From an uncultured Geobacter sp. (lineage in GTDB: Bacteria > Desulfobacterota > Desulfuromonadia > Geobacterales > DSM-12255): a stretch of DNA of 50,387 nt. Position numbers and translations under genes: made by a program. Shown here one piece after another: positions 5,238 to 9,061 of this stretch (its first letter is position 1; every line of letters begins with the position of its first letter). The notes under the pieces were generated by a model. The model was not told where the DNA came from, did not search any database, and was given only the letters and a program-made list of their open reading frames with translations. The stretch covers positions 1 to 50,387 of the forward strand of contig CALMOE010000071.1 in NCBI GenBank assembly GCA_937871715.1. Direction: 5' to 3'.

Positions 5238-6305
5238 TTACCCCTGCTTGAAGATGTATCGGACGATGTCGTTGTAGAAGGCCAGCACCATCAGGCTCAA
5301 AAGGAGCACCAGTCCGACCTGCTGGGCCATCTCCCTGACCCGCATGCTCACAGGCTTGCGGAAGATCAGCTCCCAGGTGAAGAAGAAGAGATGGCCACCG
5401 TCGAGAATCGGTACCGGCAGAAGGTTCAGCACCCCAAGGTTGATGGAGAGGAGTGCCATGAATGCCAGGAAGCTAACCCCTCCTGCGGTGGCCTGCTCCC
5501 CTGCCATCTTGGCGATCATGATCGGTCCGCCTACCGTGTCCAGGGGGACTACCCGCTCCAGCATCTTGAGGATGGAGACGATGGTCAGATTGATCACCTT
5601 CCAGCACTGCTCCCCCCCCCTGATGATGGCCTGGCCCGGGGGGAAACGGTCAGTAACCATCTCGCCCGCGGCGATGACTCCGATGGCCGGGTAGGAGATC
5701 TTCTCGCCGAAGAGATTCTTCCCCTGCCTGGTCTCAGGGGTGATGCGGAATAGAATTGTCTCCCCCCCCCTTCTTACGCGAATATCCAGGGGAGCCCCCT
5801 TGCTGTCGGCAACCATGGAGGAGAATTCGTCCCAGCGGCTTACATCCCGGCCGTTAACAGCCTCCACCCTGTCGCCAACCATCACCCCGGCTGCTGCAGC
5901 CGGCTTGCCGGCGACCACTTCGCCGATCCTGGTGGTGGCTGCGGGGACGCCTATCATGTAGATGGAGATAAAGAGCAGAAGGGCGAAGAGGAGGTTGAAG
6001 ACCGGGCCGGCGGCGACGATGACGATCCGCTTCAGAGGGTGCTTCCCCATGAAGGAGCGGGGGAGATCCTCATCGCTAAGCTCGGCGTCCGGACTCTCGC
6101 CGACCATCTTCACATACCCACCCAGGGGGAAGGCGGAGACCAGGTACTCGGTCTCGCCGAACTGCTTCCCCACAAGCTTGGGGCCGAAGCCGAGGGAGAA
6201 CTTCTCCACCCCGACTCCGAACAGCTTGGCGAAGAGGAAGTGCCCCAACTCGTGGACGAAAATGAGAAGACCTAGGACGACAACAGCTGAAATGACATAG
6301 ATCAT
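5238..6305 (-). CDS. rseP: Site-2 intramembrane zinc metalloprotease RseP
   Basis: Inner-membrane protease that cleaves anti-sigma factors and signal-peptide remnants in envelope stress signalling. 355 aa. Zinc motif HELGH lies in TM1 ([15 protein letters not shown], about residue 18). A periplasmic PDZ domain spans about 115-200, and the second zinc-ligand motif [12 protein letters not shown] is near residue 295. The start overlaps the dxr stop by 4 nt (ATGA type). Two long C runs on the plus strand (8 and 9 bases, near 5610 and 5765) lie in the coding region. dxr-rseP linkage is usual in bacteria. Confidence 0.96.
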
Positions 6306-7456
6306 GCCGGCAAAAGCTCCCTGGTTTTAGTGCGGCTCCAGACGTCCGCCTCAAGCACGTCGGCGATGGAACCGAGATCGTGGGGCAGATGGCTCTCCAT
6401 CACCCTCTCGATCAGTGCGGCTATGCCGCTGAAGCCGATCCTCCCCTGGAGGAATGCCTCCACGGCGACCTCGTTGGCGGCGTTCATCACAGCCGGCATG
6501 CTCTCCCCCTCGGCCAGGGCCCGGTAGGCAAGCCCCAGGCAGGGGAAGCGCTCCATGTCCGGCTTGAAAAAGGTCAGCCCGGAGAGCTCGGTAAGATCCA
6601 GGGGCTTCACCCCGCTAGGGACCCGCTCCGGGTAGGTGAGGGCATAGGCGATGGGGGCCTTCATGTCCGGTGTGCCGAGCTGGGCAATGACGCATCCGTC
6701 AACGTACTCAACCATGGAGTGGATGATGCTCTGGGGGTGGATGTTGACCGCGATCCGCTCGGCAGGGAGGTCAAAGAGCCACCTGGCCTCGATAACCTCC
6801 AGCCCCTTGTTCATCATGGTGGCCGAATCGATGGAGATCTTCTTCCCCATGCTCCAGTTCGGGTGGTTGAGGGCATCGGCCACGGTCACCCGCTGCAGCA
6901 TCTCCGTCGGGGTATTGAGAAAGGGACCGCCGGAGGCGGTGAGGATGATCCTGGAGATGTCGTGGCTGCGGTGCCCCTCCATGGACTGGAATACGGCGCT
7001 GTGCTCGCTGTCCACCGGGTAGAGCCTCACTTCGTGGCGCTCCACCAGATCCATGATGAGATGGCCGGCGGTGACCAGGGTCTCCTTGTTGGCCAGGGCC
7101 AGATCTTTGCCGGCCTTGATGGCCGCGGCGGTCGGCACCAGCCCGGCGGCTCCGACTATTGCTGCGACCACCATCTCGGTTTCGGGGAGGGTCGCAGCGG
7201 CTATCAGCCCCTCCACGCCGGACATGATCTCGGTGGAGCACCCGGTGGGGAGCATGTCTCGCAGCTCCCCTGCCAGCTCCTCGTTCTGAACGACTGCCAG
7301 CCGCGGGGAGAATCTCCGGACCTGCGCTGCCAGCAGCTCGATGTTGGATCCAGCGGTAAGAGCCTCCACCCTGAACCTCTCCCCATGGGCGACGACGATA
7401 TCAAGGGTGCTGGTGCCGATGGATCCAGTTGAACCGAGTATGGTGAGATGTTTCAT
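6302..7456 (-). CDS. dxr: 1-deoxy-D-xylulose 5-phosphate reductoisomerase
   Basis: NADPH-dependent conversion of DXP to MEP, the committed step of the non-mevalonate isoprenoid pathway; cytosolic. 384 aa, normal length. The N-terminus [20 protein letters not shown] is the Rossmann dinucleotide site. Metal and substrate motifs include [12 protein letters not shown] and [12 protein letters not shown], with the catalytic segment [22 protein letters not shown]. It lies between cdsA and rseP and supplies the pathway that feeds UppS, encoded two genes upstream. No strong ribosome site is seen at 7456. Confidence 0.97.
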
Positions 7457-7509: not shown

Positions 7510-8295
7510 CTACAGCAGGGTGGAGAAGTACCAGATTACCGGTGCGGCGAAGATGATGCTGTCCAGACGGTCAAGGACGCCACCGTGCCCGGGGATGATG
7601 TTTCCCGAATCCTTCACGCCGCAGCTCCTCTTGAGGAGGGACTCGAACAGGTCACCCACCTGGCCGAAGATGCCGACCACGACCGCCGCGGCAATGCAGA
7701 GGGGGATCCCCAACTGGGGGAAGAAGATGGCGCGGAACAGCAGGGAGCCCACCAGGGAGCCGGCTATCCCCCCCAGCGCCCCTTCTATGCTCTTGTTCGG
7801 GCTGACCGCCGGATAGAGCTTGCGTCTCCCCAGCATGGAACCCACGTAATAGGCTGCGCTGTCCCCCGACATGACTATGAACATCATGAGGAAGATCCAC
7901 TGCACACCCAGGTGGCCGGAGCGGAGCATGACCAGGTAACCGAGGAGCAGCGGCACATAGAGGATGCCGAAGACCATGATGCCGCACTCTGCGGCGACCT
8001 GGCGGATATCCTTGAAGCGGAAGAGGTAGTAAGTGGAGGCAGACAGGACGAAGAGTGTGATGGCAACTATGACGTAGTGCCAGCTGCGGAGGTGGAACAG
8101 GTAGGTGACTCCGGCGCCGTAGAGGGCCGTGACCACCCCCGGGAGTTCCCTCCCGGGGAGAGCCATGCGGCAGTACTCCAAAAGGCCTATGAAAGCCATC
8201 AGGCAGATGAATACGGCAAACAGGAAGGCGCTCCCCTTGAGTAGCAAGAGTATCAGCAGGGGGAGGGCGACAGCGGCGGACAGTAACCGTTTGAT
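7510..8295 (-). CDS. cdsA: Phosphatidate cytidylyltransferase (CDP-diglyceride synthase)
   Basis: Makes CDP-diacylglycerol from CTP and phosphatidic acid in the inner membrane. The C-terminal signature KDSGNIIPGHGGVLDRLDS and SPNKSIEGALGG are diagnostic, with about eight predicted membrane helices. No ATG or GTG opens the frame. The first in-frame TTG (8247) would remove the first half of TM1 and has no ribosome site. At 8295 an in-frame ATC begins a family-typical N-terminus (xKRLLSAAVALPLLILLLLK), and AAGGAG lies 7 nt upstream, directly after the uppS stop. I therefore place the start at ATC (261 aa). A base error of ATG to ATC would look the same. Confidence 0.85.
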   Translation of the reverse strand: MKRLLSAAVALPLLILLLLKGSAFLFAVFICLMAFIGLLEYCRMALPGRELPGVVTALYGAGVTYLFHLRSWHYVIVAITLFVLSASTYYLFRFKDIRQVAAECGIMVFGILYVPLLLGYLVMLRSGHLGVQWIFLMMFIVMSGDSAAYYVGSMLGRRKLYPAVSPNKSIEGALGGIAGSLVGSLLFRAIFFPQLGIPLCIAAAVVVGIFGQVGDLFESLLKRSCGVKDSGNIIPGHGGVLDRLDSIIFAAPVIWYFSTLL

Positions 8296-8311
8296 GGGCT
8301 TTCTCCTTGGG

Positions 8312-9061
8312 TCAGCTCCTGGCCTTGATCTGGTCGCCTGTCAGGCCGAAGCGGCGCTCGCGCGACTGGAAGTCGGCGATCGCCCTGAGGAGCTCCTGAC
8401 GATTGAAGTCCGGCCAGTTGATGTCGGTGAAGTAGAGTTCCGCATAGGCAAGCTGCCAGAGGAGAAAGTTGCTGATTCGCATCTCCCCGCTGGTCCTGAC
8501 AAGCAGATCCGGATCTGGCAGGCCGGCGGTGTACAGATAATCGGCGAAGACGGCTTCGTTAACACTCTCTGCAGACAGCCTCCCGGCAGCGATGTCAGCG
8601 GCGACCCGGCCAACCGCATGGAGGATCTCCTGGCGGGAACCGTAGGAGAGGGCCAGGGTCAGGGTCAGGCCGGTGTTGCTTGCGGTAAATGCCATCGCTT
8701 CCTCAAGTTCGCGGCTGATCTCCTCCGGCAGGTCACCCCTGTTGCCGATAACGTTGAAGCGGATGTTGTCTCGCATCATCCTCGGCACTTCCGACTGGAT
8801 GTACTTCTTGAGGAGGTTCATCAGGGCGCTCACCTCCGCCGTGGGGCGAGACCAGTTCTCGGCTGAGAAGGCAAACAGGGTGAGGTAGGCGATCCCCAGC
8901 CTGGAGCATTCGGTAACCACCATCCTCACCGTCTCGGCACCCTTGCGGTGCCCCATGAGGCGTGGGAGCATGCGGGCCTTGGCCCACCTGCCGTTGCCAT
9001 CCATGATTATTGCCAGGTGATGTGGCATTTTCCCGGTGGCGACCGCTGTCACATCAGTCAT
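8312..9061 (-). CDS. uppS: Undecaprenyl diphosphate synthase (cis-prenyltransferase)
   Basis: Adds eight isoprene units to farnesyl diphosphate to make the C55 carrier lipid precursor for peptidoglycan and surface glycans. 249 aa. Signature HLAIIMDGNGRWAKAR with the catalytic Asp, then GHRKGAETVR, LTLFAFSAENW, and the C-terminal DLLVRTSGEMRISNFLLWQ and FTDINWPDF. The ATG at 9061 adds 11 residues before the conserved core; the ATG at 9028 is a possible alternative. Ribosome sites are weak for both. The frr terminator lies just upstream, so uppS needs readthrough or its own promoter, which I could not identify. Confidence 0.96.
   Translation of the reverse strand: MTDVTAVATGKMPHHLAIIMDGNGRWAKARMLPRLMGHRKGAETVRMVVTECSRLGIAYLTLFAFSAENWSRPTAEVSALMNLLKKYIQSEVPRMMRDNIRFNVIGNRGDLPEEISRELEEAMAFTASNTGLTLTLALSYGSRQEILHAVGRVAADIAAGRLSAESVNEAVFADYLYTAGLPDPDLLVRTSGEMRISNFLLWQLAYAELYFTDINWPDFNRQELLRAIADFQSRERRFGLTGDQIKARS

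Follow-up and report, generated by a model that had tools for sequence, protein, structure and literature searches.

In the 50,387-nucleotide stretch of DNA from an uncultured Geobacter sp. analyzed here (the window), cdsA lies on the minus strand in the gene order uppS-cdsA-dxr-rseP (Table 1). The sequence around its start reads ...CTGACCC AAGGAG AAAGCCC ATC AAA CGG TTA CTG..., with a 7-nt spacer (8302-8296) between the Shine-Dalgarno sequence and ATC. An earlier note on this DNA had taken ATC, behind AAGGAG at that spacing, as the start codon of cdsA, and its coordinates are right. Its statement that no ATG or GTG opens the frame also holds and extends to TTG, as none of the three codons occurs among the 15 codons from the TGA at 8343-8341 to the ATC. 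The two downstream candidates that it listed, CTG (8283-8281) and TTG (8247-8245), are present as claimed. Read from ATC, CdsA matches the Pfam family CTP_transf_1 (PF01148) over residues 2-259 of 261 (6.7e-59) and, under the curated cut-off, the NCBIfam model for phosphatidate cytidylyltransferase. The predicted RNA fold at the start site in the window was no better than that of shuffled sequences (z = -0.10).

Table 1 Features at the cdsA locus of the window
Feature	Position	Strand	Basis or remark
cdsA initiation codon ATC	8293..8295	-	Sequence reading; ATH at the aligned position in 169/173 class members
Shine-Dalgarno sequence AAGGAG	8303..8308	-	7 nt 5′ of ATC; most relatives carry a G-rich, SD-like block at this spacing
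cdsA, CDP-diacylglycerol synthase (phosphatidate cytidylyltransferase), 261 codons from ATC	7510..8295	-	Pfam PF01148, 6.7e-59
In-frame TGA closing the cdsA frame upstream	8341..8343	-	Sequence reading
uppS, upstream gene, ATG start	8312..9061	-	Stop ends 16 nt before the cdsA ATC
dxr, downstream gene, ATG start, control for canonical starts	6302..7456	-	

The genome that contains the window is a draft of 304 contigs, which made an error at 8293-8295 a fair worry, and the same position of cdsA was therefore read in relatives, a comparison that the earlier note had also called for. The sample comprised 173 genomes of the class from 25 families and 78 genera, of which 112 belong to the window's own order (four families) and 61 to the other 21 families. 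Judged by gene content and the set of genomes, the order is probably Geobacterales and the class Desulfuromonadia. Within the order, cdsA begins with ATC in 67 genomes, ATT in 31, ATA in 13, and GTG in one, while the rest of the class has ATT in 47, ATC in 11, and GTG in three. In total, one of the isoleucine codons ATC, ATT, or ATA (AUH in the mRNA) occupies the start in 169 of 173 genomes, GTG in four, and ATG in none, strongly supporting the reading of ATC as the start codon in the window. A sequencing or assembly error, which the earlier note had raised, is thus rejected and has a negligible probability, as the same codon class recurs in 168 other genomes, single-contig ones such as G025 among them.

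The conservation extends to the individual bases of the codon and to its surroundings. The first base is A in 169 loci and the second is T in 173/173, and the third is C, T, or A, with G present in the four GTG cases only. Across the 173 loci, bases -10 to -7 form a Shine-Dalgarno-like purine block. Outside the window's order, the conserved start is ATT AAA CAR CG, which is one residue longer than within the order. The four canonical starts (L003, L142, L228, and L230) are all GTG and reflect about three separate changes, with three of the four genes belonging to one family (f10); a canonical start is thus tolerated in some lineages. A peptide-pattern search of genome contigs for relatives returned one distant match only, and a search of open-licence papers found no report of cdsA with an unusual start. 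Non-AUG starts are already known, and what is new here is the gene concerned and the depth of conservation.

An unbiased start scan, combining codon usage, Shine-Dalgarno sequence, and a start prior, was applied to 1.2 Mb (512 gene calls) of the complete relative G025 and produced three clear non-canonical starts only: infC (ATA), cdsA (ATC), and the gene that follows a MoxR-like ATPase gene (ATC). In the window, the same scan singled out cdsA alone among 29 calls. For infC, ATA following AGGAGGT was found in 27/27 loci read from the order (L174-L203), including that of the window's own genome (L193, G000:C39:47881-48378). The idea that the AUH starts are read by a special initiator tRNA carrying an isoleucine-type anticodon was rejected as extremely improbable, given that the G025 tRNAs read, a set covering all but a few rRNA-operon tRNAs, contained one ordinary initiator (CAU anticodon, C1:A72, GGG/CCC stem) and no second one.

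The third gene from the scan (L296:1890-2789; G025:C1:2461890-2462789), which we take to be DUF58-like, was also followed into relatives (L354-L383). In one genus it starts with ATC, preceded by AAGGAGG, and in another with ATT, and about 28 of 30 relatives have no ATG, GTG, or TTG near the N-terminus, with several carrying ACG at the position. There appears to be an overlap between this start and the 3′ end of the preceding gene. From its sequence, this gene is a second candidate for non-canonical initiation, or for a coupled or frameshifted start.

The true start of cdsA might instead lie elsewhere, either hidden upstream or at an internal CTG or TTG, leaving the isoleucine as an ordinary residue, and some relatives do have a distant in-frame canonical codon upstream. 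However, ATG, GTG, and TTG are absent anywhere upstream in frame in 132 of the 169 ATH loci, and the distance from the AUH to an upstream stop is at most two codons in 10 loci and at most five in 32. On the 3′ side, the first canonical codon has a median position of codon 13, and in 54 loci it comes at codon 20 or later. No alternative is common to the loci, and the candidates on the downstream side differ among loci and would truncate the first membrane helix. This alternative is already refuted for most loci and is very improbable overall, and the sequence comparison makes it near certain that the AUH codon is the start of cdsA in vivo.

Because an isoleucine codon starts cdsA in nearly every genome of the class that was checked, this unusual start is genuine and maintained by selection. 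Two genes at the same loci served as controls, with uppS starting at ATG in 93/93 cases and dxr starting at a canonical codon in 69/69. The history of the codon was followed on a FastTree phylogeny built on 95 residues with the start codon excluded. Start-codon labels change about 33 times on this tree, with three changes to or from GTG and none to ATG, and the third base changes about 30 times among A, C, and T but never to G. If G were equally likely at the third base, the probability that about 30 changes among ATT, ATC, and ATA would include none to ATG is ~5e-6, a rough figure given that the tree comes from a short alignment. A start codon evolving neutrally would be expected to move towards AUG (PMC5622118). 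Outside the window's order, ATT is enriched at the start when compared to internal isoleucine codons (47:11 vs 368:437, Fisher p = 1.8e-7, relatedness ignored); within the order, the split among ATC, ATT, and ATA matches that of the internal isoleucine codons, and no AUH codon is favored.

The position of cdsA behind uppS raises the possibility that CdsA is made by translational coupling, in which ribosomes that finish translating uppS reinitiate at the AUH close by and the identity of the codon is of minor importance. In many genomes, uppS ends within a few nucleotides of the cdsA start or overlaps it, and the short distance seen in the window (16 nt past the uppS stop) would also allow this. 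Against coupling, the distance from the uppS stop to the AUH varies from -19 to +139 nt, while the spacing between the Shine-Dalgarno sequence and the AUH is nearly fixed. In addition, of the 56 loci in which the gap is at least 10 nt, 53 retain the AUH (order, 36/36; remainder of the class, 17/20), and coupling leaves the avoidance of ATG unexplained. We consider coupling improbable as the main explanation. Overlap with uppS as a constraint on the codon itself was rejected, as the AUH is also found where a clear distance separates the two genes.

Starts of cdsA were also read outside the class. In other classes of the phylum, an ATG or GTG lies a few codons further upstream in most cdsA genes. 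The class of G310 was represented by one genome. In the class of G292 (L234-L262, L151), where starts were read by eye and three loci could not be aligned, cdsA begins with CTG behind a Shine-Dalgarno sequence in about 16 of 30 cases, nearly all without a usable in-frame alternative; two genes there start with ATT and several with ATG, GTG, or TTG. The cdsA gene of E. coli K-12 is annotated from TTG (L353:78, NC_000913.3:195677). Because of the CTG starts in the class of G292 and the TTG in E. coli K-12, weak starts may be a wider habit of cdsA. The class-wide spread, the same kind of start in infC of this genome, and the CTG starts in another class all lay beyond the view of the earlier note.

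Precedents for non-canonical starts have been described in several bacteria (PMC5472188, PMC13009471, PMC1780047). IF3 represses starts other than AUG, GUG, and UUG, and infC is autoregulated through IF3 from an AUU start in E. coli and an AUC start in Streptomyces, where sigR, with a GTC start, is likewise repressed by IF3 (PMC5472188). In S. aureus, conserved AUU and AUA starts behind extended Shine-Dalgarno motifs give ~10% of the output of AUG, and in rich medium one of these starts reaches 30% (PMC13009471). The cdsA gene resembles the AUH-start genes of the infC and pcnB type in having a non-canonical codon with no in-frame canonical alternative, a well-placed Shine-Dalgarno sequence (AAGGAG at 7 nt), and conservation over 169/173 genomes and 25 families with no ATG.

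Among the closest known systems, infC of E. coli and other bacteria (AUU, AUA, or AUC) also has an AUH behind a strong Shine-Dalgarno sequence conserved across relatives, although cdsA usually has a shorter Shine-Dalgarno sequence than infC, with its AGGAGGT, and, as cdsA encodes a lipid enzyme, any effect of IF3 on it would not be autoregulation. The pcnB gene of E. coli shares a weak, AUU-type start, which lowers expression of the chromosomal gene, but is another gene in another lineage, whereas the cdsA feature spans a whole class. Like cdsA, sigR of Streptomyces combines a conserved non-canonical start with a good ribosome-binding site outside infC; it differs in using GTC rather than AUH and in being confined to one genus as opposed to 78 genera, and repression by IF3 is shown for sigR and inferred for cdsA. 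Staphylococcus ccpN (AUA) and cvfC1 (AUU) have a conserved AUH with an extended Shine-Dalgarno sequence and reporter output near 10% of that of AUG, but their products are a regulator and a small protein, not an essential membrane enzyme, and in the data of that study they are conserved over a narrower group (PMC13009471).

Because cdsA has the same anatomy as these precedents, a weak codon that is conserved behind a good Shine-Dalgarno sequence, the explanation that we favor, and consider likely, is that selection maintains weak initiation, which holds CdsA low and makes its synthesis sensitive to the fidelity of initiation, above all to the amount of IF3 relative to ribosomes. Translation would start at an isoleucine codon, AUC here and AUU, AUC, or AUA elsewhere in the class, which the ordinary fMet initiator tRNA would read with a third-base mismatch while the good Shine-Dalgarno sequence holds it at the weak codon. 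Selection for the weak codon would then keep CdsA synthesis low and responsive to fidelity, with control exerted chiefly by the IF3-to-ribosome ratio, as in infC and pcnB of E. coli and sigR of Streptomyces. By analogy with these genes, low initiation at the cdsA AUH is very likely, and the effect proposed in the earlier note, that an AUC start limits the amount of CdsA, is plausible. Regulation of cdsA by the level of IF3 is plausible as well.

The strongest competitor, which may well be correct even though we lean against it, is that the weak codon merely fixes a low level of CdsA, with IF3 providing constant discrimination and having no regulatory part. For pcnB, the AUU start has been described as a limit on expression, and the TTG from which cdsA of E. 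coli K-12 is annotated is also weak; together with the CTG used in another class of the phylum, these cases fit a fixed low level. A weak Shine-Dalgarno sequence would suffice for this purpose, yet strong ones are kept with the weak codon, which is the layout of infC and sigR, and infC of this order starts with AUA. These observations point towards the fidelity-sensitive explanation. A broader extension of it, which we put forward tentatively and think rather unlikely as a whole, is that cdsA and infC form a small, class-wide set under IF3 control, such that both would be translated more when IF3 is short of ribosomes, with CTG elsewhere being a second solution to the same need.

To our knowledge, genes with non-canonical starts have very rarely been characterized well, and we know of no gene finder able to call such starts; cdsA is therefore probably annotated from a wrong start in databases throughout the class. 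A non-AUG start conserved over 78 genera on an essential lipid enzyme provides a naturally occurring case in which regulation by choice of start codon can be tested, and it may directly connect the level of initiation factor with membrane synthesis. More speculatively, phospholipid synthesis could be linked to translation capacity through the start of cdsA and, if cdsA and infC do form an IF3-controlled set, that set would tie an early committed step of phospholipid synthesis to the translation capacity of the cell.
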